From positions 1 to 35,047 of the IMG/VR virus record IMGVR_UViG_3300035698_004299: a stretch of DNA of 35,047 nt; one strand, written 5' to 3'. Positions 6,666 through 24,422 of this stretch are shown here, one piece after another. How positions within the stretch are numbered: the stretch's first letter is position 1; every line of letters starts with the position of its first letter. The position numbers and the translations under genes were made by a program. This DNA is from a virus. The notes beneath the pieces were generated by a model, which searched no databases, had not been told where the DNA came from, and saw only the letters and a program-made list of their open reading frames with translations.

Positions 6666-7100
6666 CTATAATAGTTTTTTATTCACAAACGCTTTTAATA
6701 TATATCCTACGTTCATCTGTTTAACGATCTTATCTAGTGTTCGGGCTGGATAACCAACCATTACGATAGTCACTAGCGTGTCAAACATACGATCAACGAT
6801 AGGGGGTATTTCTTTAGCTAGTAATGCTTCAGGCGTGTAGCCGAAGGCAAACATGATAAAGAATATAAGGAACACCATTGGTATTAGCGGTCTGTAGGTC
6901 CTGGTAATCCAGGAGTCACTCTTAGACTCTGCTATAGCCATCTGGAATGCTGCGACGTTAGCCTTAGCTTCGTCATCCTTCAAGTCGCCTACTAGCTTAA
7001 CCGCTGAGCCTACAAGCTCGGCTTGTTGTTTCTTCATACCAAAGAGGCCACCAATTACGGAGCTAGCTGCTGATATGATTGCTACAAATGGGAATGCCAT
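6666..7100 (-). CDS. Holin, three-transmembrane family
   Basis: A 144-residue membrane protein with a hydrophobic N-terminal segment (about 4-22, VAIISAASSVIGGLFG), a charged helical stretch, then SDSWITRTYRPLIPMVFLI with a strong membrane segment at about 75-92, and a third near 105-120 (TLVTIVMVGY). The SDSW-TR-RPL pattern before the second segment is typical of the holin 3TM family found in phages and gene transfer agents. Holins perforate the cytoplasmic membrane to release the endolysin, here probably the amidase at 29796-30227. A ribosome site (AAGGA) lies eight bases before the start, and a consensus promoter lies just upstream. Confidence 0.8.
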   Translation of the reverse strand: MAFPFVAIISAASSVIGGLFGMKKQQAELVGSAVKLVGDLKDDEAKANVAAFQMAIAESKSDSWITRTYRPLIPMVFLIFFIMFAFGYTPEALLAKEIPPIVDRMFDTLVTIVMVGYPARTLDKIVKQMNVGYILKAFVNKKLL

Positions 7101-7129
7101 TAAGGGTCCTTTTTTTTATACTATATACC

Positions 7130-7158
7130 ATTATAGCATACTTTTACTTGCTTGTCAA
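7130..7158 (-). promoter_or_regulatory. Consensus sigma70 promoter for leftward late genes
   Basis: On the minus strand, TTGACA (7158-7153), 17 bases, TATAAT (7135-7130), with TGC directly before the -10 box (extended -10). All twelve box positions match consensus. The start site would be near 7123, about 23 bases upstream of the holin start. It is the only strong promoter directly upstream of the leftward structural genes. Confidence 0.85.
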
Positions 7159-7311
7159 GCATTTTATTTAACTTTCTATCAAAATACCTTAAATTAGCTT
7201 CTCCGTTTGGTCTACGAAGCGTTGCAAGCCTCATAATGTCCCTATTAATGGACATCTTATTCCTTTTATACTTTATAAAATCTATAATCATTAGGCATAC
7301 CTGTCTTATTG

Positions 7312-7362
7312 AGACTAAGGGTGAATAAGATAACCTTTATAAGTTATATCATCCTTTAGTCT
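7312..7362 (+). repeat. Long imperfect hairpin
   Basis: AGACTAAGGGTGA (7312-7324) pairs with TCATCCTTTAGTCT (7349-7362) through 13 pairs with one bulged T and one G-T pair, and the interior ATAAC/GTTAT (7330-7334 with 7343-7347) adds five pairs. The G-T pair exists only if the plus strand is the RNA; on the minus strand it would be C-A. No T-run follows on either strand, so it is not a simple terminator. Confidence 0.6.
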
Positions 7363-7736
7363 TCTGTTTATCCCTGGAACCCAGTGGAAGGGTATCAGGC
7401 TATATGTCCCACTTTCGTGGATCCGTACTTCATAGAGATTATCAGGTGCGGGAGGATGGTGAATCCTCTATGCTTCCGCAATTGCTATCTATCACCCTTA
7501 TTAAGAACCTATTTATTACTCTCTACGGTTTGGAGTACCTCCGTCTCAGGAGAGGCCCTATGAAGCTCAGTATACAACTTTCGTCGTTATTATGCTGTTA
7601 GGTATACCTAGTCTCTTCCGATTGTTCTAGGGCCCTGTAGGGGCCTTTAAAGACGTTAAGGATTGAGATAATCATTCGTCTGTGTATTTGTCACCTATTA
7701 GTGGTTAATTAGTGACACTTCTATTCTTATGTAACC

Positions 7737-7766
7737 ATTATACCACACTAGGTGCCCCCTTGTCAA
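7737..7766 (-). promoter_or_regulatory. Consensus sigma70 promoter inside the non-coding region
   Basis: On the minus strand, TTGACA (7766-7761), 18 bases, TATAAT (7742-7737), preceded by TGG (extended -10). It would start RNA near 7730 reading left through about 600 non-coding bases before the next promoter and the holin gene. No coding frame follows it closely, so its product may be a leader or a non-coding RNA. Confidence 0.78.
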
Positions 7767-7997
7767 GTACTTCCTGCGAATTTTTTACAATAAAACCATA
7801 GTACTACCGTACGGGTGGGAACTCCCCGATACTGGCTGATATTCCCCCTAATGCTCCCGTACAGGAGTATCTTTTGCCCCATAAACAGGTTAACGTCCCT
7901 TTTAAGCACCCACTAGGGCTGACTGGGTGCCAATAGTATAACTACTTATAGGTATACCCCCGTATAAATTGGTATAACTCTGGTGTTTCTTACGTCC

Positions 7998-8038
7998 AGC
8001 GAGCCTCGGTGCCCTTACAAGGGTCCTGGAGGCGAGCT
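7998..8038. repeat. Hairpin with symmetric GA/GA internal loop
   Basis: AGC (7998-8000), GA, GCCTC (8003-8007) pair with GAGGC (8029-8033), GA, GCT (8036-8038). The opposed GA/GA step could form tandem sheared G-A pairs in RNA. Inside, CCCTT (8012-8016) pairs with AAGGG (8019-8023). This looks like a folded RNA element rather than a terminator, because no T-run follows. Confidence 0.5.
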
Positions 8039-8372
8039 AATGTATAAATAATAATAGTATTATCCCCCATAGAGGATATCTGGTGTTTTATCCCCTGTAG
8101 GGTATATTTTCCCTGTGGGTGGGAGGTTGGCCCTCCCCCCTAAAAAAAAGAGTGAAGAAGGAATGGTTGGAACCTATAGCCCCTTAATTGCTGTTTTCTC
8201 TCACTTTGTCCACACCCCCCTAGTATAGTATCTACCATGCCCCCCAAGTTACAGTGTCTACACTCAGCACACACAGCAGGTTAGTGTGTTGTTATGTTGT
8301 TTGTTTTTATTTACAGAGTGTGCACCCCCTCCCCCCTGCCCTACCCATACCATCCAGTGTATATGTATACAT

Positions 8373-8718
8373 GTATGTGTAAGCTCCATACATCCACTGT
8401 ATCAAGAGATCATATGTACCTATACTATACCATAGGTAGCGTACTGATCGTACAGTACAGACAACTATGCCGTGAATAATGGGCGGTGGTGACGTACCAC
8501 AGCACACATACCACATACATACACAACACACAATACTATCACATACACACCACATGATACACACATACCGTACATATCCTATTCCTTTTATGGAGTACGA
8601 TTGCCAGTACGATTACGACTGAATATAAACTAATAGTATATCTATGGGATATTATCACCCACACTACACGCTACTATATACTACGCTGCTTTGTGCACAC
8701 GATATTCTATTATCCACA
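8373..8718. other. Candidate replication origin region
   Basis: A perfect DnaA box TTATCCACA lies at 8710-8718. The heptamer CACATAC occurs four times (8505-8511, 8512-8518, 8540-8546, 8562-8568), with an inverted copy GTATGTG at 8373-8379. The stretch 8500-8580 is nearly all C, A and T on the plus strand, and AT-rich sequence follows to 8800. The region lies in the divergent gap between early and late genes, a usual place for a phage origin. There is only one DnaA box, so host DnaA use is uncertain. Confidence 0.4.
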
Positions 8719-8806
8719 GGATGACATACCCCCCTGACAATTAGAGATAAGCTGTAACCTATTGATAGTAAAGGATAATATAAATGTAATTAATTACTGA
8801 TTGTAC

Positions 8807-8835
8807 TTGACAAGATGGTAATAGTGTACTATACT
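8807..8835 (+). promoter_or_regulatory. Consensus sigma70 promoter for the rightward early operon
   Basis: TTGACA (8807-8812), 17 bases, TATACT (8830-8835). The start would be near 8842, about 30 bases before the first early gene at 8871, which has a GGAG ribosome site. The flanking sequence is AT-rich. This is the first rightward promoter after the divergent region. Confidence 0.85.
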
Positions 8836-8870
8836 TACAGTAAGAAATAAGGGAACAGACGGAGATTAAC

Positions 8871-9050
8871 ATGAACACATACAAAATCACGATCATATTT
8901 GGCAACGGAACTAAAGATACACCACATACTGTGACAATAGAAGAAGATAAAATACAGGACTATGTTGATACCTTATCTAGACTAATCCAAGCTACTCACA
9001 AACATTATGGAATAGAAACAACAGTTGCGATACTTACAGATCATGTCTAA
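8871..9050 (+). CDS. Small early protein, unknown function
   Basis: A 59-residue protein (MNTYKITIIFGNGTKDTPHT...) starting ten bases after a GGAG ribosome site and about 30 bases from the predicted transcription start. It is the first gene of the rightward operon. It has a strand-rich N-terminal part and a helical middle (DKIQDYVDTLSRLIQATHKHYG). Its stop overlaps the start of the next gene. First early genes of lytic phages often encode host-takeover proteins, but nothing in the sequence shows this. The family is not recognised. Confidence 0.7.
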   Translation: MNTYKITIIFGNGTKDTPHTVTIEEDKIQDYVDTLSRLIQATHKHYGIETTVAILTDHV

Positions 9051-9312
9051 CCCTAACGATAGGTTTATACCAACAGAGAAAGAGCCAATCGTACATTTAA
9101 TTATGTGCGGTAAAGGCGCAAGACCTCGGCTGTTAAGGGTAAATATTGAGAGAGCGAAGGCTATGAAATTTTGTTCGGATAAGAGGACTAAAGGAAAAAC
9201 CTTCTTTATAGCTTTCAGCGCTGACCCTGATTGTTTAAATCCCAAGATGATTAAAACACTTACAGATAACGGAGCATTTGATGAAGTATTTGAAGAATGT
9301 GGAATAGAATAG
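9043..9312 (+). CDS. Small early protein, unknown function
   Basis: An 89-residue basic protein. I chose the ATG at 9043, which overlaps the stop of the preceding gene (ATGTCTAA), over a TTG at 9025 with no better ribosome site. It contains a patch rich in Arg and Lys (CGKGARPRLLRVNIERAKAMK) and a later DKRTKGKTFFIAFSADPDCLN segment, suggesting a small alpha/beta fold. No catalytic motif is recognised. Its place in the early operon suggests a host-interaction or DNA-metabolism role. Confidence 0.7.
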   Translation: MSNPNDRFIPTEKEPIVHLIMCGKGARPRLLRVNIERAKAMKFCSDKRTKGKTFFIAFSADPDCLNPKMIKTLTDNGAFDEVFEECGIE

Positions 9313-9322
9313 GAGAAGTATA

Positions 9323-9520
9323 ATGGAACGTAGACAACAATTGGATTATATCAACGAAACACTAGATATATTGTATGCAGCAGAAGACGCCATAGCGGTG
9401 GCGTTCACTCCTGATGATGGCATGAAGCCTTCACTGCATAAACGACTGGATGCAATAATAGCAGACCTCCAATGGAGACAATCCCACCTTGAAGGTGAAT
9501 GCGATGTAACAGGAGATTAA
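9323..9520 (+). CDS. Small acidic early protein, unknown function
   Basis: A 65-residue, mostly helical acidic protein (MERRQQLDYINETLDILYAA...) with an AGGAG ribosome site nine bases before its start. It ends before a 212-base untranslated stretch holding a new promoter, so it is the last gene of the first early cluster unless transcription reads through. No known motif is visible. Confidence 0.7.
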   Translation: MERRQQLDYINETLDILYAAEDAIAVAFTPDDGMKPSLHKRLDAIIADLQWRQSHLEGECDVTGD

Positions 9521-9585
9521 CAAGGTTAATTATAAATAGATAACTATTATAGTCAATCTTTAGCTACGAATATATAACTTAATAC

Positions 9586-9613
9586 TTGACAAATGCTGAA
9601 TATGTACTATAAT
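9586..9613 (+). promoter_or_regulatory. Consensus sigma70 promoter for the second early cluster
   Basis: TTGACA (9586-9591), 16 bases, TATAAT (9608-9613), both boxes perfect. Transcription should start near 9620, a few bases before the 5' strand of the outer stem of the candidate structured RNA at 9626. The first downstream gene starts at 9733. Confidence 0.85.
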
Positions 9614-9625
9614 TATAATAACAAA

Positions 9626-9708
9626 GAGAGATGCCTAGCGGATGGGAACCAGTGCTAGGGTAAACGCTGGGGCTTGTAACCTCATCTGGTAATAATACAC
9701 GGTCTCTC
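9626..9708 (+). ncRNA. Candidate structured leader RNA with pseudoknot
   Basis: An 83-base element between a perfect promoter and the gene at 9733. The proposed fold is as follows. P1 is GAGAGAT (9626-9632) with GTCTCTC (9702-9708). P2 is GATGGG (9641-9646) with CC-T-CATC (9680-9686, one bulge). P3 is CCAGTG (9649-9654) with CGCTGG (9665-9670), with a ten-base loop. Loop bases CTAGG (9655-9659) can pair with CCTAG (9634-9638) as a pseudoknot. Two G-T pairs (9632-9702, 9653-966) favour the plus strand. The 83-base size with a seven-pair outer stem recalls a tRNA, but no T-arm or CCA exists. It may be a riboswitch, a ribozyme, a protein-binding leader or an RNA-stabilising 5' structure. Confidence 0.55.
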
Positions 9709-9732
9709 ACTTATTACTACAAGGAGAATGAA

Positions 9733-9915
9733 ATGATCATACCAACAGACTATGAAGTAGAGGACATCGATACTAAAGACTACCCAGACTTCAGTGATGC
9801 ATTCATTAGCAAGGCATACCACACAGATGGTAAAGAGTACAACGAACAAGAGCTTGACGCTCTTAACGATGATGACCTACTAAGATATGTACTAATAATG
9901 GAGGCAATGAAATGA
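9733..9915 (+). CDS. Small acidic phage protein, unknown function
   Basis: A 60-residue acidic protein with an AAGGAG ribosome site seven bases upstream of the start. The sequence has DYPDFSDAFISKAY and EYNEQELDALNDD, a pattern I have seen in small conserved proteins of several phages whose role is unknown. It is the first gene after the structured leader, so if the leader is regulatory this gene and those coupled to it are the direct targets. Its stop overlaps the next start (ATGA). Confidence 0.75.
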   Translation: MIIPTDYEVEDIDTKDYPDFSDAFISKAYHTDGKEYNEQELDALNDDDLLRYVLIMEAMK

Positions 9916-12461: not shown

Positions 12462-13127
12462 ATGTATAAATTAATAAATTGTTTAGGAATAATAATCCTA
12501 CTACTATGTACCACTACAGCGCTAGCCAAAGGGGCTAAGGCTGTTATACATGGGGATAAGCCCTATATTGGATGTAAAGGGACAGTAGACGAAGTCTGCC
12601 ATGCGAGATTAACCACAGAAATTGGAAATCCTGAGAAATACAGAGAATTTCTCTATTTACTAGACAGATTGGACGAAACAGACACGGTTTACGTACATTT
12701 AGCAGGCAATGGTGGGCAATATAGGTCTATGTTGCAGATAGTCAACACAATGCAGAGCAGCAAGGCGAAGGTAATCACAGTAGTAGAGGGATACGTATAT
12801 AGCGCTCACGCCGTCATAGCGCTCGCTGGTAAGACAATAGTTATACACCCCAGTACTGTGTTCCTTTTCCATAGATCGTCCCGCTACAGGACAGAGAAGT
12901 CTATTTGTATCGGACAGAGGGGTAAGTTTGACAGAACGGTGAGTGCTTATCTTAAATGTCAGAGATTTCATAAGAAGCTATTAGAGGCCGACGCACATCT
13001 GCTACGCAGAATAGTGGGACGGCTTCTCACAAAGCCAGAGTTTAATGCCATGCTGCAAGGTGCAGATATCATATTACATGGGGATGTAGTACTTAAGAGA
13101 TTAGCTCCCCCACCTAGGGCTAAGTAA
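12462..13127 (+). CDS. ClpP/SppA-like serine peptidase with signal sequence
   Basis: A 221-residue protein. The first 23 residues (basic start, hydrophobic core LGIIILLLC, then ALA) look like a cleavable signal peptide or membrane anchor. The rest shows the ClpP/crotonase-like peptidase fold: VHLAGNGG (78-85) as oxyanion loop, the nucleophile in YVYSAHAV (Ser114) and the histidine in FLFHRSS (His137). A catalytic Asp is not certain. ClpP itself is cytoplasmic, so an exported or anchored version is unusual and closer in idea to SppA or periplasmic ClpP-like proteins. Four cysteines fall outside the signal region. It ends on the start of the primase gene (TAATG). A second, soluble relative lies at 15682-16272. 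Confidence 0.7.
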   Translation: MYKLINCLGIIILLLCTTTALAKGAKAVIHGDKPYIGCKGTVDEVCHARLTTEIGNPEKYREFLYLLDRLDETDTVYVHLAGNGGQYRSMLQIVNTMQSSKAKVITVVEGYVYSAHAVIALAGKTIVIHPSTVFLFHRSSRYRTEKSICIGQRGKFDRTVSAYLKCQRFHKKLLEADAHLLRRIVGRLLTKPEFNAMLQGADIILHGDVVLKRLAPPPRAK

Positions 13128-15681: not shown

Positions 15682-16272
15682 ATGAGTACAGAAGAATATG
15701 ACGATATGGCCTCCCCTTACAAGATCTTTTCTAAGACTACAGCAGGGCAGGAGCATGATGTTTACCTATCCGATTCCGTGGAAACAGATAGCGCCGAGTA
15801 CATAGACCTATTAAGGTTTTTTAATAAGGTCCCAGCCAATGACTATGTAACGGTACATTTAGCTAACTTTGGGGGAGCTGTGCATACAGGTCTTCGTGTG
15901 GCACACGCTATGCGGAACTGTGACGGAATAGTTACCGTCAATGTAGATGCACCATGCTACAGCATGGGCGCTATCTTGGCTACCTCAGGGGATATACTTA
16001 TAATGAACCCAGGAACATTCTTAATGTACCATAATTATTCAACCGTTGAGGGCGGAAAAGCTGGGGAACTAAAGACAGCAGTACTACAGTATGAGAAGCA
16101 TTTTCAATATAGTCTTAAATACTTCTGCTCTCCCTTCTTAACCAAGAAAGAGATAAAAGATTTATCTCGCGATACAGATGTGTACATCCATTACAACGAT
16201 GATGATCTGGTGAAGCGGTGTAAACGACACTTCCCAATGGTGAAAGATATGGAGATAACTAAGTATGACTAA
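15682..16272 (+). CDS. ClpP-like serine peptidase
   Basis: A 196-residue ClpP-family protein, the size of bacterial ClpP. It shows VTVHLANFGG (57-66) as the oxyanion region, the nucleophile in CYSMGAIL (Ser94) and the catalytic histidine in LMYHNYS (His117). It has no signal sequence, so it should be cytoplasmic. ClpP needs an AAA+ unfoldase partner to degrade folded proteins, and none of the ClpX/ClpA type is seen here; it could use host ClpX/ClpA or act alone. It lies between helicase and polymerase and overlaps the polymerase start by eight bases. It is similar in motif order to the signal-bearing protein at 12462, suggesting an old duplication. Confidence 0.82.
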   Translation: MSTEEYDDMASPYKIFSKTTAGQEHDVYLSDSVETDSAEYIDLLRFFNKVPANDYVTVHLANFGGAVHTGLRVAHAMRNCDGIVTVNVDAPCYSMGAILATSGDILIMNPGTFLMYHNYSTVEGGKAGELKTAVLQYEKHFQYSLKYFCSPFLTKKEIKDLSRDTDVYIHYNDDDLVKRCKRHFPMVKDMEITKYD

Positions 16273-18533: not shown

Positions 18534-18838
18534 CAGAGAATAAAGTAGACGAATTGATTACATTTATTTGTACCTACCCAGAGTTCGCCGATATCATGCA
18601 TGTCATAGAGTTCGGAGCGAACAAACATGGGGATGATAATTGGATACAACAAGCAGGGAAGAAGAGCAGCCACAAAGATATGCATGCATCTATATTTAGA
18701 CACATTGCAGAATCTTCAGCCGGGGTCCGGGAAGACCACGAGACAGGGCTAGACCCCTTGCTACACGCAGCAGTGAGGTGCTTAATGCTTTACACTAGAA
18801 AAACCAGACACTTAGACCACCCAGAGGATGAGGCTTAA
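18530..18838 (+). CDS. dATP/dGTP diphosphohydrolase-like protein (DUF5664 type)
   Basis: A 102-residue helical protein with IEFGANKHGDDNW (residues about 26-38), an ASIFRHI segment (about 53-59) and DHETGLDPLLHAAVRCLMLY (about 68-87). The pattern FGAxKxxxxNW, then xxxRHI, then DxETGLxxLxHAAxxxLxL is that of the phage dATP/dGTP diphosphohydrolase family (PF18909, relatives called MazZ in phages that use 2-aminoadenine). Members are related to MazG and hydrolyse dNTPs to dNMP. Here no PurZ or DatZ partner is seen, so Z-base synthesis is not implied. It may only adjust nucleotide pools. It overlaps the small gene upstream and precedes prkA. Confidence 0.7.
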   Translation: MTENKVDELITFICTYPEFADIMHVIEFGANKHGDDNWIQQAGKKSSHKDMHASIFRHIAESSAGVREDHETGLDPLLHAAVRCLMLYTRKTRHLDHPEDEA

Positions 18839-18839
18839 T

Positions 18840-20759
18840 ATGAAATTGTTAAAAACTTTACAAAATGAATACCAACAAAAGCAAAATAAAGTGATGACCC
18901 TTGAGGAATACCTTAAGCTGGCCAAGAAAGATAAGAGTATCTTCGCATCGCCAGCAGAAAGGATGCTATCAGCAATAGGAAAGCCTACACTAATAGATAC
19001 GGGAAAAGATCCCCGACTAGGTCGAATCTTCGGCAATAGGGTTATCCGCTCATATAGCACCTTTCAAGATTTCTACGGTATGGAGGAAGTAATCGAACGA
19101 ATCGTTTCATTCTTCACCCATGCAGCGCAGGGATTAGAGGAATCTAGACAGATATTATATTTATTAGGACCGGTAGGGTCCGCTAAATCTTCGATAGCAG
19201 AGCGCTTAAAAGAGTTAATGGAGGAGCAGCCCTTCTTCGTGTTAGCGGATGTGGAGGGCAACCTAAGCCCAGTTAACGAGTCTCCTTTGGGGATCTTCGA
19301 AACACAACAAGCAAAAGAGTTAGGTATACCAGAACGGTACTTAACCATACGCCCATCACCATGGGCGCTTAAGAGGATTGACGAATATGACGGTGATTTA
19401 TCCAAATTCAGAGTGGTACAAGTCTCCCCATCAAGGGACAGACAAATCGGTATCAGTAAAACCGAGCCCGGTGACGAAAATAACCAGGACATTAGCACCC
19501 TTGTCGGTAAGCTCGATATTAGAAAACTTGAGTTCTTTTCCCAAAATGACGCAGATGCCTATAATTATAGTGGGGGATTGTGTTTATCAAATCAAGGGAT
19601 TCTTGAATTCGTCGAGATGTTCAAAGCCCCGATTAAAGTATTGCACCCATTACTCACAGCAACTCAGGAACGGAACTATAAAGGAACTGAAGCTATCAGC
19701 GCCATCCCTTTTGATGGTATTATATTAGCCCATAGTAATGAAAGTGAGTGGGACACCTTCAAGGGAGACCAGAACAATGAGGCATTCCTAGATAGGGTGT
19801 ACATAGTAGAGGTCCCATACTGTTTACGAATCGATGAAGAAGTTACAATTTATAAGAAGCTGTTAGCAAGTAGTGACTTGGCTAAAGCTAAGAGAGCACC
19901 AGGTACTCTACATATGTTAGCGAAGTTCTCTATCCTATCAAGGCTAGATCAACCGGAAAACTCAACGCTTGAAGCTAAGCTATTAACCTATAACGGTGAG
20001 AACATCAAAGATAAAGATGTAAAAGCAAAGGCTTACCATGAATATAAAGAAGCTGCTAGCAGGGAAGAGGGATTTTTCGGAGTATCCACACGACTAGCCT
20101 ACAAGGTTTTATCGGAAGTGTATAACTTCGACCCAGATGAAATAGCTGCTGATCCTGTACATTTATTGTACATCTTAGAGAAAGTTATTAAGAAAGAAAG
20201 ATATTCGGAAGACAAAGAGTTATTATACCTCACCTTCTTGAAAGACTTCCTAGCCCCACGCTACGCACAAGAGGTAGGTAAGGACATACAAACAGCATAT
20301 TTAGATAGTTATAGCGAATATGGGCAAGCATTATTTGATCGATACATCCTATTTGCTGACCATTGGGTACAAGATAATGATTATCGTGACCCAGATACAG
20401 GTAATATGTTCGATAGATCAGCACTTAACAACGAGTTAGAGCGAATTGAGAAGCCAGCTGGCATCGCTAACCCTAAAGATTTTAGGAACGAGATAACCAA
20501 TTTCGCCTTACGCTACCAAGCGAGGCACGATGGTAAGAACCCTAAATGGACTTCTTATGAAAAACTAAGAAGAGTAATCGAGTCAACAATGTTTAGTAAA
20601 ACCGAGGACTTACTGCCTATTATCTCCTTTGGAGGGCATGGATGTAGCGATGATCGGAAAAAACATGACGCATTTGTTGACAGAATGGTAGAAATGGGCT
20701 ATACTAAGAAACAAGTAAAGAGATTAGTGGAATGGCATATCAGAATGCAGAAGAGTTAA
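18840..20759 (+). CDS. prkA: PrkA-type AAA+ serine protein kinase
   Basis: A 639-residue protein, against 644 in E. coli YeaG/PrkA, and alignable over its whole length from memory. Landmarks include AAERxLxAIG-like start (SPAERMLSAIG), FYGMEEVIERIV, P-loop GPVGSAKSS (110-118, K116), KTEPGDENNQDIS, EFVEMFKAPIKVLHPLLTAT, FDGIILAHSNESEW, EYRDPDTG-like region and KKHDAFVDRMVEMGY near the end. PrkA proteins have an AAA+ domain and a C-terminal kinase-like domain and act in starvation responses; ATP-dependent protease activity has been proposed for the Bacillus protein. I chose ATG 18840, preceded by GAGG at the right distance, over ATG 18828. The gene is rare as a phage gene. Confidence 0.95.
   Translation: MKLLKTLQNEYQQKQNKVMTLEEYLKLAKKDKSIFASPAERMLSAIGKPTLIDTGKDPRLGRIFGNRVIRSYSTFQDFYGMEEVIERIVSFFTHAAQGLEESRQILYLLGPVGSAKSSIAERLKELMEEQPFFVLADVEGNLSPVNESPLGIFETQQAKELGIPERYLTIRPSPWALKRIDEYDGDLSKFRVVQVSPSRDRQIGISKTEPGDENNQDISTLVGKLDIRKLEFFSQNDADAYNYSGGLCLSNQGILEFVEMFKAPIKVLHPLLTATQERNYKGTEAISAIPFDGIILAHSNESEWDTFKGDQNNEAFLDRVYIVEVPYCLRIDEEVTIYKKLLASSDLAKAKRAPGTLHMLAKFSILSRLDQPENSTLEAKLLTYNGENIKDKDVKAKAYHEYKEAASREEGFFGVSTRLAYKVLSEVYNFDPDEIAADPVHLLYILEKVIKKERYSEDKELLYLTFLKDFLAPRYAQEVGKDIQTAYLDSYSEYGQALFDRYILFADHWVQDNDYRDPDTGNMFDRSALNNELERIEKPAGIANPKDFRNEITNFALRYQARHDGKNPKWTSYEKLRRVIESTMFSKTEDLLPIISFGGHGCSDDRKKHDAFVDRMVEMGYTKKQVKRLVEWHIRMQKS
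20677..20705 (+). promoter_or_regulatory. Candidate promoter before the YeaH/SpoVR part
   Basis: TTGACA (20677-20682), 17 bases, TATACT (20700-20705), 72 bases before the gene at 20777. Eleven of twelve positions match. The sequence also encodes the conserved PrkA C-terminus (FVDRMVEMGYT), so a chance match through codon choice must be considered. Confidence 0.45.
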
Positions 20760-20968: not shown

Positions 20969-21089
20969 AGCATCGGTAAGTATAGTTAAGAGATTTAAGA
21001 ATCTCGCTAAATTCATCCATACAGGGATGAAGACAGGGGATAAAGTTCTCATAATAATGGTAATTATAGCATTGGTGGTACTAATTTAA
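20961..21089 (+). CDS. Small single-pass membrane protein next to YeaH
   Basis: A 42-residue protein with a basic N-terminal part (MSKASVSIVKRFKNLAKFIH) and a C-terminal hydrophobic segment (VLIIMVIIALVVLI) that ends the protein. GGAG lies eight bases upstream. Its stop and the YeaH start share a base (TAATG), so the two may be translationally coupled, which suggests but does not prove a shared function, for example tethering the YeaH/PrkA complex to the membrane. Confidence 0.6.
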   Translation: MSKASVSIVKRFKNLAKFIHTGMKTGDKVLIIMVIIALVVLI

Positions 21090-22246
21090 TGACAATCATC
21101 GACAGACGTAAAAATAGCAAAGGTAAATCGACTACTAATCGTAAGAAGTTTATCGACCGCTATAAACGTCAAATCAAGAACGAAGTGGAGGACCTCGCAA
21201 AGGATCGGAATATCCAAGATATTCTGGATTCTGGTGAGGTTACTATCTCCGGCGATGATATCTCGGAGCCTACATTTGAGCATAACTCGGATACAGGCTC
21301 TAGGGACCACGTGTTACCAGGTAACAAGAAGTATAGACGTGGTGACCACATCAAGAAGGATAAAGGCGGACAAGGACAAGGCCGCGGAGGGTCTAACGAT
21401 GGGGATGGATCAGATGAATTCAGTTTCGTACTGACTAAAGATGAATTCTTAGATTTGTATTTCCATGGGATGGAGTTACCAGACTTCTTAAAAGAAAGCG
21501 CTAAGGATAACGTACGCTTTAAGTATAAGAAAGCTGGATACAGTAAAGACGGGATACCAGCCCGATTAAATGTTAAGAAGACCATGGAGCAGGCCATAGG
21601 CCGTCGCTTCGCTACTAAGGGACAAGGCAAGAAGCCTAGGTACCTAGATGATGAGGATATCCGATACGATTACTTCGCTAAGAAGCCAATACCAGTACGT
21701 ACAGCAGTAATGTTTTGCTTAATGGATTGCTCAGGCAGTATGGGAGAGTTCCATAAAACTATAGCTAAAAAGTTTTACTTACTACTATACTTATTCTTAC
21801 ATAAAGAATATGAATTTATTGAGCTTGTGTTTATAAGACATACACATAGAGCCTCGGAAGTAGATGAACATACCTTCTTCCACGGAAGAGAGACAGGTGG
21901 TACGGTAGTTTCCACAGCATTAGAACTAATGAAAGATATTATGGATACTAGATACGACCACGCAAGTACTAACTTCTATGTAGCGCAGGCCTCAGATGGA
22001 GATAACTGGGCAGATGATGCGCAGGCTACCAAGGACCTATTAAGACAGATTATACCATTAGTACAATACTATGTATATATCGAGATTAACGAAATGGAAT
22101 GGGCCGAACAACGGGCCAACATAGGCCTCGATGCCTTATTGAATACCTTTAAGTCTCTAGAAAGAGAATTTAAGAATACAAAATGTAAGCAAGTATATGA
22201 CGCATCAGATGTATACCCAGCACTACAGGAGTTATTTAAGAAATGA
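21089..22246 (+). CDS. yeaH: YeaH/YhbH family VWA protein (UPF0229)
   Basis: A 385-residue protein matching E. coli YeaH (427). Landmarks: IDRRKNSKGKSTTNRKKFI at the start, the Gly-rich linker (GGQGQGRGGSNDGDGSDEF, 93-111), KDEFLDLYFHGMELP, and a VWA domain with the MIDAS motif DCSGS (D213, S215, S217), the ETGGT threonine (T269 or T272) and ASDGDNWADD (D303). About 43 residues of a helical, coiled-coil-like segment before the VWA domain of YeaH are missing (around residue 175-185 here). VWA proteins pair with AAA+ proteins, and in bacteria yeaH lies next to prkA. Translation is coupled to the membrane gene upstream. Confidence 0.93.
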   Translation: MTIIDRRKNSKGKSTTNRKKFIDRYKRQIKNEVEDLAKDRNIQDILDSGEVTISGDDISEPTFEHNSDTGSRDHVLPGNKKYRRGDHIKKDKGGQGQGRGGSNDGDGSDEFSFVLTKDEFLDLYFHGMELPDFLKESAKDNVRFKYKKAGYSKDGIPARLNVKKTMEQAIGRRFATKGQGKKPRYLDDEDIRYDYFAKKPIPVRTAVMFCLMDCSGSMGEFHKTIAKKFYLLLYLFLHKEYEFIELVFIRHTHRASEVDEHTFFHGRETGGTVVSTALELMKDIMDTRYDHASTNFYVAQASDGDNWADDAQATKDLLRQIIPLVQYYVYIEINEMEWAEQRANIGLDALLNTFKSLEREFKNTKCKQVYDASDVYPALQELFKK

Positions 22247-22277: not shown

Positions 22278-23594
22278 GTGGTAAAAGTAGATGATACTGG
22301 GATTAAACCCTTATTCACATCAGCAGAATGGGATTTCGAGACTATCCAAAAGACTTGGGATGCTATCGATAAGATAGGCAAAGATGTCTTTGGATTAGAC
22401 TATTATGCCCCACAGATTGAAATGATTACAGCAGAGCAAATGCTGGATGCCTATAGCTCGGTAGCTATGCCGGTCATGTACAACCATTGGTCCTTTGGTA
22501 AGTCGTTCATCCAAAATGAAAGAGCATACAATCGGGGACAAATGGGATTGGCCTACGAGGTAGTGATTAACACTAACCCATCTATAGCATACCTTATGGA
22601 AGAGAATACTATGACTATGCAAACATTAGTTATGGCACACGCAGTGTGTGGACATGCCTCATTCTTTAAGAATAACTATCTATTCCAAGAATGGACAGAT
22701 GCCGGGAGCATCTTAGAGTATCTTAAGTTTGCTAAAGAATACATACATAAATGTGAGAGTAAGTACGGCAACACGGCCGTAGAGAAGATACTGGACGCTT
22801 GTCACGCATTACAGTACTACGGTGTGGATAAATACCAACGAGCGAACGTACTGAAAGCTGACCTTAAAGCTGAACGAGTAGAAGTATGGGAACAATACTT
22901 TGATGAGAAGTTTGACCATGTACTCAATACAACAGTAACCGATGCCGTAGGTACTCGTAATAGTGCCAAAGCTAGAGCACTTAAGGGCGCAACTACAGAC
23001 GTTAGGCACGCAGAGAATGAGGAGAATATCCTATATTTCATAGAGAAGAACTCCACAGTATTAGCCCCATGGCAACAAGAGATAGTACGTATCGTGCGTA
23101 AGATAGCACAGTACTTCTATCCCCAAATGCAAACACAGTTAATGAATGAGGGTTGGGCTACATTTACACATTATAATATAATGACAGAATTACATGGCCA
23201 AGGACTGATAACAGACGGTAGCTTTATGGAGTTTTTACAGAGCCATTGCGGAGTTGTTGCACAACCAGACTTTGATAGTGATTACTATTCAGGTATTAAT
23301 GTATATGCACTAGGGTTTGCGATGATGCAAGACATCAAAAGGATATGCCAGAACCCAACAGCTGAGGATAGGAAATGGTTCCCAGACTTGGTAGACCAAG
23401 AGTGGTTACCCACAATGAAGGATATAGTAGAGGACTACAGAGATGAATCGTTTGTTTTACAGTTCTTATCGCCAAAGATTATTAGAGATTTCAAGTTATT
23501 CACGCTACATAATGATGAGTGTACATCAAAGTACACAGTAGCAGCGACCCATTCGGATGAAGATATATTAAAAAATCCGACAATCGCTTTCTAA
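22278..23594 (+). CDS. spoVR: SpoVR/YcgB family protein, N-terminal 438 residues (frameshifted)
   Basis: GTG start with AGAGG seven bases before it. This frame gives 438 residues that match SpoVR/YcgB through FxLFxxxDDE: MPVMYNHWSFGKSF, the MAHAVCGHASFFKNN motif (H121, H126), NEGWATFTHY (290-299) and SPKIIRDFKLFTL. E. coli YcgB has about 510 residues, so the C-terminal 75 are missing here. They are found, in the right order and without gap, in the +1 frame at 23572-23820. The shift falls at an A6 run (23570-23575). SpoVR is needed for spore cortex in Bacillus; YcgB acts with PrkA and YeaH in starvation. The molecular role is not settled. Removing one A would give a 513-residue protein. Confidence 0.93.
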   Translation: MVKVDDTGIKPLFTSAEWDFETIQKTWDAIDKIGKDVFGLDYYAPQIEMITAEQMLDAYSSVAMPVMYNHWSFGKSFIQNERAYNRGQMGLAYEVVINTNPSIAYLMEENTMTMQTLVMAHAVCGHASFFKNNYLFQEWTDAGSILEYLKFAKEYIHKCESKYGNTAVEKILDACHALQYYGVDKYQRANVLKADLKAERVEVWEQYFDEKFDHVLNTTVTDAVGTRNSAKARALKGATTDVRHAENEENILYFIEKNSTVLAPWQQEIVRIVRKIAQYFYPQMQTQLMNEGWATFTHYNIMTELHGQGLITDGSFMEFLQSHCGVVAQPDFDSDYYSGINVYALGFAMMQDIKRICQNPTAEDRKWFPDLVDQEWLPTMKDIVEDYRDESFVLQFLSPKIIRDFKLFTLHNDECTSKYTVAATHSDEDILKNPTIAF

Positions 23595-23820
23595 GCATTA
23601 TAGTTTAACCTATAAACTACCGCAAATGGAAGTATTATCAAACAAGACAACATCATCGTCTAAGAATGTCATGTACTTACAACATAAAGTTATTGATGGT
23701 ACGATATTAGATTATGAGAAAGCGAAGAAGACATTAAGATATATAGACTACCTTTGGGGCAGTCCAGTAGAATTAGAGTATGTAGGCCCAACCGGGCTAC
23801 AAGTAGACAGAGTTCAATAG
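23572..23820 (+). CDS. spoVR: SpoVR C-terminal segment in the +1 frame
   Basis: The +1 frame is open from 23572 and reads IRQSLSKHYSLTYKLPQMEV, then VMYLQHKVIDGTILDYEKAK and IDYLWGSPVELEYVGPTG. This matches the C-terminal domain of SpoVR/YcgB (IRQxLSxxYxL, LTLRHxxxxxxPL, VLxHxxxLWGxxVxLE). It cannot be an independent gene: the first ATG (23626) lacks a ribosome site and the conserved part starts before it. The segment is therefore the end of SpoVR, reached by +1 frameshifting, or lost by a one-base insertion, or an assembly error in the A run. Confidence 0.85.
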   Translation, partial: KIRQSLSKHYSLTYKLPQMEVLSNKTTSSSKNVMYLQHKVIDGTILDYEKAKKTLRYIDYLWGSPVELEYVGPTGLQVDRVQ

Positions 23821-23831
23821 AGGAGAACGTA

Positions 23832-24422
23832 ATGGAAAAAACAGTAACAGTAATCAGTGTAGAGCAGGATTTTGCAGCAGAGAAACGAGATGGTAGTACT
23901 TACCAGGCTACGATGCTGAATTATCAAGATGGACAGTTTGCTAAGCAAAAAGCTTTTGCTAATGCTTTCTTATCCAGCCAACCAGAACTAACAGAGAAGC
24001 TGCATGCACTAAAGCCTGCAGATATTGTAACCCTAGTGATGGAAAAGAACGGTATGTTTACTAACGTACTAGATATCATCTCAGGCGCTACAGAAGAAGG
24101 AACTTCATTCAAAAAGAAGGCTTTCGCGCCAACAGCGCCTACGTCGTCTAAGGCTCCGAATTCATTTCAAAGTAATGCGCATGGTCTACAAGTGGGTAAT
24201 TCGCTAACTAATGCCACAACCTTAATTGCTGCAGGCAAAGCTAAGGGTACCTTAGAAGAAGTAGCAGTAATGGTTATCCAAGTAGGCGAAAGCCTCAAGG
24301 CCAGGTTAGCAGCAGGAGAGTTCGCTGTTCCCGAACAGAAAACAGAAACTAAAGTACCTGTTGTAGAAAAAGTAGCAACTGAGGACATAGTAGTAGATGA
24401 ATGTATCGACTTTGGGAGCTAG
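23832..24422 (+). CDS. Possible single-stranded DNA-binding protein
   Basis: A 196-residue protein started at ATG 23832 (GGAG seven bases upstream), not at the in-frame upstream codon at 23754. The N-terminal 90 residues (MEKTVTVISVEQDF..., DGSTYQATMLNY, DIVTLVMEKNGMFTNVLDII) could form a five-strand OB-fold. The middle is low-complexity Ser/Ala/Thr-rich, and the C-terminal tail is acidic and ends in a hydrophobic residue pair (EDIVVDECIDFGS). This layout resembles phage ssDNA-binding proteins such as T7 gp2.5, and its place before the nucleases fits. Sequence alone cannot confirm it. Confidence 0.45.
   Translation: MEKTVTVISVEQDFAAEKRDGSTYQATMLNYQDGQFAKQKAFANAFLSSQPELTEKLHALKPADIVTLVMEKNGMFTNVLDIISGATEEGTSFKKKAFAPTAPTSSKAPNSFQSNAHGLQVGNSLTNATTLIAAGKAKGTLEEVAVMVIQVGESLKARLAAGEFAVPEQKTETKVPVVEKVATEDIVVDECIDFGS

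Follow-up and report, generated by a model that had tools for sequence, protein, structure and literature searches.

Genes of the SpoVR (YcgB) family are already known from phages. The jumbo phage RsoM2USA carries a SpoVR protein of 506 amino acids (ORF28) and, two ORFs away, a PrkA protein (ORF30); the description of ORF28 in that report gives it as a single ORF and mentions no frame break (PMC8504454). The spoVR gene has also been described among viral genes from an oxygen minimum zone (PMC8940887). Genes whose C-terminal part is separated from the rest by a frame change or a stop are the other closest systems. In the Listeria phages PSA, A118 and A500, the C-terminal part of a gene lies in the +1 frame and is reached by +1 frameshifting; these are structural genes, the site is a CCC codon beside a stop codon or a stimulatory pseudoknot, and several phages share the arrangement (PMC5009743). 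In Citrobacter rodentium tssM1, a stop soon after an A11 run cuts off a C-terminal domain, and slippage of about 20 to 25%, determined by experiment, rescues the prematurely stopped gene (PMC4256274). When homology validates a frame transition that occurs in one gene only, the transition has been classed, in the main, as a sequencing error, or else as a recent indel, and cases close to the 3' end lean toward real indels (PMC3711429).

The locus described here lies in a 35-kb virus record (IMGVR_UViG_3300035698_004299; the whole stretch of 35,047 nucleotides is referred to as the window), which also contains terminase, portal, DNA polymerase A, DnaB-like helicase, primase-like and exonuclease genes. 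Its spoVR gene shares the domain order of the family, PF04293 followed by PF24755, and has PrkA and DUF444 genes upstream, as in the prkA(yeaG)-DUF444(yeaH)-spoVR(ycgB) set, in which YeaG, YeaH and YcgB are presumably the E. coli counterparts of the PrkA, DUF444 and SpoVR proteins. The difference from the family is that the domains are split over two frames, in this record only. The likeness to the Listeria phage genes is a C-terminal part in the +1 frame, and the likeness to tssM1 is a stop soon after an A-run that cuts off a C-terminal domain, although here the run has six A's and is known from sequence. In our view (probability roughly 0.87), the break arose from a one-base sequencing or assembly error or by recent mutation, rather than being a programmed frame switch.

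Reading frames of the spoVR locus

The features of the locus, in the coordinates of the window, are the following.

18828 to 20759, plus strand: intact PrkA (YeaG-like) kinase gene (PF08298, E 8.2e-157; PF06798, E 1.6e-57)
21089 to 22246, plus strand: intact DUF444 (YeaH-like) gene, the upstream partner (PF04285, E 1.4e-126)
22278 to 23594, plus strand: SpoVR frame-0 open frame, GTG at 22278 to TAA at 23592-23594, 438 amino acids
23570 to 23575, plus strand: six-A run (A6), site of the frame change, read from the sequence; no such run at the corresponding place in any of the 61 distinct junctions of relatives
23572 to 23820, plus strand: SpoVR C-terminal domain in the +1 frame, open to TAG at 23818-23820, 82 amino acids, viral SpoVR profile positions 422-499
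23832 to 24422, plus strand: next gene, its ATG 12 bases past the +1-frame stop with GAGGAG just upstream; no PHROG match

The gene is an ordinary phage copy of spoVR, a stress gene of bacteria, and is third in the prkA-DUF444-spoVR cassette. Frame 0 encodes native SpoVR up to codon 431, followed by seven out-of-frame codons and the TAA; the nearest viral relatives are 61% identical to its product, and the core domain PF04293 is matched over profile positions 1 to 390 of 407 (E 8.6e-147). The SpoVR_C domain, PF24755, does not follow the core in the same frame and was found in the +1 frame (E 5e-08). In the viral SpoVR profile, which represents 24 intact viral proteins, the frame-0 piece covers positions 8-421 and the +1 piece 422-499; they abut exactly, and the break falls at 84% of the gene length, close to the 3' end. 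The codons across the run are TTA AAA AAT CCG. The sequence agrees with the earlier note on the position of the run, the junction TTA AAA AAT, the end of frame 0 at 23594 and the gapless +1 frame from 23572; the 513-residue joined protein that it proposed is likewise recovered, as 431 frame-0 codons plus 82 in the +1 frame. The record's spoVR is a broken copy of a SpoVR (YcgB) family gene, and the spacing to the gene at 23832 is tight only when the +1 segment is counted as part of spoVR.

Other ways of accounting for the two frames were rejected. A -1 frameshift on A AAA AAT was dropped because it leads to the wrong frame, the C-terminal part being in +1, and the possibility that the junction holds an intein or intron was dropped because the two profile matches abut (421/422) with no insert between them. 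A restart at ATG 23626 (64 codons) was dropped as the main reading because no Shine-Dalgarno sequence was seen by eye.

Long in-frame inserts are present in the SpoVR core of some viral relatives (L025, 4905-7337; L030, 4995-8063; L027, 3780-6221; L033, 2990-6061). They look like inteins; those of L025, L030 and L033 terminate in GN or HN ahead of C or T, and the inserts occupy two or more different protein sites.

Elsewhere in the window, about 1.7 kb (7110-8870) without an ORF of at least 90 amino acids, and with many C5-C6 runs, separates the minus-strand packaging genes from the plus-strand genes. Its minus strand is more stable than shuffles at 7200-7680 (z -2.95) and 7980-8240 (z -2.1). 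Rfam gave no match at gathering score across the window, nor within 7050-9800 with E allowed up to 1, and comparison of 7110-8870 with the fetched loci gave no strong DNA match (best E 0.006). The region is possibly a structured noncoding RNA or a control region.

Comparison with viral and bacterial relatives

Related phages, the comparison proposed by the earlier note, bear directly on the origin of the break. A profile scan covered 95 fetched viral loci with SpoVR (the window counted once), of which 73 are distinct: 66 that span the junction, 6 that do not reach it and the split gene of the window. All 66 spanning genes (88 of 88 loci) run through in one frame; in the first search, of 32 viral loci, 29 reach the junction and every one of these, inspected singly, stays in frame. 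Among bacteria, the best 80 of at least 589 SpoVR matches are each in one frame, 79 by a strict one-frame rule and the remaining one (L197), which also shows a short stray match, by a single open frame over positions 3-492 of the profile. Located by motif, the 61 distinct viral relative junctions yielded no A6 shift site at this place (0/61); in L116, a run of six A's precedes the junction by a few codons, and the frame is intact. Since none of these viral or bacterial relatives is split and the shift site is absent from the 61 viral junctions, the break is private to this record. No conserved frameshift site was found in these sets, whereas a cluster of five or more genes with a conserved site has been required for programmed frameshift genes (PMC3711429).

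The neighboring genes of the cassette were broken in none of the same viral loci (PrkA, 0/90 distinct; DUF444, 0/83 distinct), and frame breaks of this kind are therefore rare, single events. Taking two same-strand frames that match successive parts of one relative's protein as a broken gene, we saw no second case when the window was compared with the fetched relatives, a check that is shallow beyond PrkA, DUF444 and SpoVR, where relatives are few; the other pairs that came up stemmed from antisense shadows or from two protease-like genes that are paralogues. The record is not indel-rich overall, and a single break in 35 kb counts against a generally error-prone assembly. The two Clp-protease-like genes (12462-13127 and 15682-16272) both match one relative protein and are likely paralogues.

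Among 80 fetched viral loci with PrkA, a hand count gave 62 that also have a SpoVR match; some of the others end soon after PrkA. In the set L049-L128, the viral contigs with PrkA and a downstream SpoVR have lengths between 10 kb (L116) and 363 kb (L110); the pair is therefore probably spread over phages of widely differing size.

At the protein level, even the nearest relative shares only about 61% identity. No near-identical contig was recovered when viral_contigs was scanned for the exact pattern with a variable A-run, and the C-terminal segment used as a query found no relative in viral_contigs or genome_contigs, collections that may omit very near records. Distant blastn in 'phages' returned only three unannotated huge-phage records (67-69%); five records matched by tblastn stand outside the junction comparison. 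A solved-structure search for SpoVR gave no match.

Coding signal and divergence of the +1 segment

The condition of the +1 segment is informative about the age of the break. Scored with a codon table drawn from the 25 other genes of the window (7,881 codons, SpoVR left out), the segment reached 15.0 bits with no stop over 82 codons, and its other two frames, which contain 8 and 7 stops, scored 0.0 and -2.6 bits. Among in-frame 82-codon stretches of the window genes, 18% score as low or lower, and only 0.5% of out-of-frame stretches of that length reach its score, 7 of 1,192 being stop free. Given this codon score and the stop-free frame, the +1 segment is genuinely coding and has undergone no long drift. 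The further stops, frameshifts and lost coding signal of a decayed pseudogene were not found in these 82 open codons. A stop would be created by 55 of the 738 possible single substitutions (7.5%), and the open frame would therefore cap unselected change at a few dozen substitutions at most.

The description of the C-terminal segment as well conserved, in the earlier note, is too strong. Identity to the seven nearest relatives is 28 to 39% in the C-terminal part versus 59 to 62% in the N-terminal part. Across 63 intact distinct proteins the two identities track each other, and the window falls below that trend in its C-terminal part (mean residual -0.96 sd), with 2 of the 63 intact sequences lower. 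It keeps 9 of 12 C-terminal columns conserved at 90% or more (as few or fewer in 4 of 63 intact sequences) and 114 of 120 conserved N-terminal columns (as few or fewer in 14 of 63). The divergence of the C-terminal part is a slight excess inside the range of intact genes, and this extra divergence leans slightly toward a real, relaxed truncation over an error.

Such an excess, like the core Pfam domain that is nearly complete without the C-terminal part, would fit a C-terminal domain shed long ago, with the +1 segment as a decaying remnant and the 438-residue core as the functional protein, a reading to which we assign little probability. Long neutral drift fits poorly with 82 codons that stay open despite the share of stop-making substitutions, the codon usage of the segment is near normal, and in all 66 distinct viral relatives that span the junction the same frame carries on through the C-terminal part. 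Old decay is unlikely, given a frame that remains open and the retention of most conserved C-terminal columns.

The six-A run and the nature of the break

The run itself could act on the ribosome. In programmed +1 frameshifting, the Lys-tRNA on AAA would slip one A forward, and a fraction of full-length SpoVR would be made. The P-site codon would re-pair perfectly (AAA to AAA), the C-terminal part is coding and joined to the core without a gap, and the Listeria phages provide precedent. The A-site codon, however, is a plain AAT with no stop adjacent, no Shine-Dalgarno sequence was seen by eye a few bases 5' of the site, and neither the split nor the site recurs in the relatives described above. 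In rough values from few single-base shuffles, the folding z of 73 stretches across the gene is lowest for those from 23520 (-3.5) and 23540 (-2.8), which counts against our reading, but these two include the run itself and bases upstream of it, and a fold that holds the site is not the usual stimulator. Just 3' of the site, folding is ordinary on the same rough scale (z -1.5 from 23560 and -1.6 from 23580, among the 73 stretches); with dinucleotide shuffles the downstream fold gave -2.27, with 7 of 200 shuffles as good, and the stable hairpin lies about 25 bases from the site. Taken as stimulators, then, a stop or starved A-site codon and an upstream Shine-Dalgarno sequence were not found, and the folds are unremarkable or misplaced. 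Since the site and split are unconserved, the helper elements are missing and six A's lie below the threshold reported for E. coli RNA polymerase, programmed +1 slippage is unsupported, and we regard it as very improbable. A recoding site that had evolved very recently in this lineage alone would look identical, the nearest relative being so distant. That A6 is such a newly acquired, weak +1 site, which would yield core-only SpoVR plus a minority with SpoVR_C and so tune the PrkA-DUF444-SpoVR set, is a speculation that we consider highly unlikely.

The least probable of the readings, in our estimate, is slippage of the polymerase at the A-run, which would give mixed mRNAs, some of them frame restored, as in tssM1. 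Three A's are enough to make T7 RNA polymerase slip, and its slippage on short runs is strong; in the same reporter study, however, E. coli RNA polymerase did not slip on runs of fewer than eight A's, nor did poly(A) give deletion slippage with this enzyme (PMC6260861). Selection against A-runs is evident from nine A's in a large share of genomes (PMC1088944). A T7-type polymerase (PF00940) was not found in the window and 10 relative records, which are possibly fragments, by a search that recovers PF00940 in T7.

A one-base error or recent mutation accounts for the locus without these mechanisms. Every comparable copy examined is unbroken, and the break is therefore most simply taken as an ordinary event of this kind, in which a one-base indel at the A-run of an ordinary phage spoVR would put the C-terminal domain into the +1 frame; recoding is unnecessary for any observation. 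A sequencing or assembly error, or a minor variant chosen by the assembler, would be the cause with about even odds, and a genuine recent slippage mutation in the sampled phage is a tentative but substantial possibility; between these two, error is slightly favored. The earlier note had left error, decay and programmed frameshift side by side. The first of these, widened to include recent mutation, is favored by a break that is private among 66 viral and the best 80 of at least 589 bacterial genes; long decay is disfavored by the open frame and near-normal codon usage, and programmed +1 slippage by the unconserved site and split, the missing helper elements and a run shorter than the reported E. 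coli RNA polymerase threshold.

Were the indel real, the product would be the 438-residue SpoVR core, ending in seven foreign residues and lacking the SpoVR_C domain. The record is better annotated as one broken spoVR than as a 438-amino-acid protein followed by a gap, or as a recoding gene. Recoding, had it been real, would have meant that a phage splits a stress-response protein in a regulated way. Overall, the locus is a worked case in which comparing relatives tells a singleton indel from recoding.
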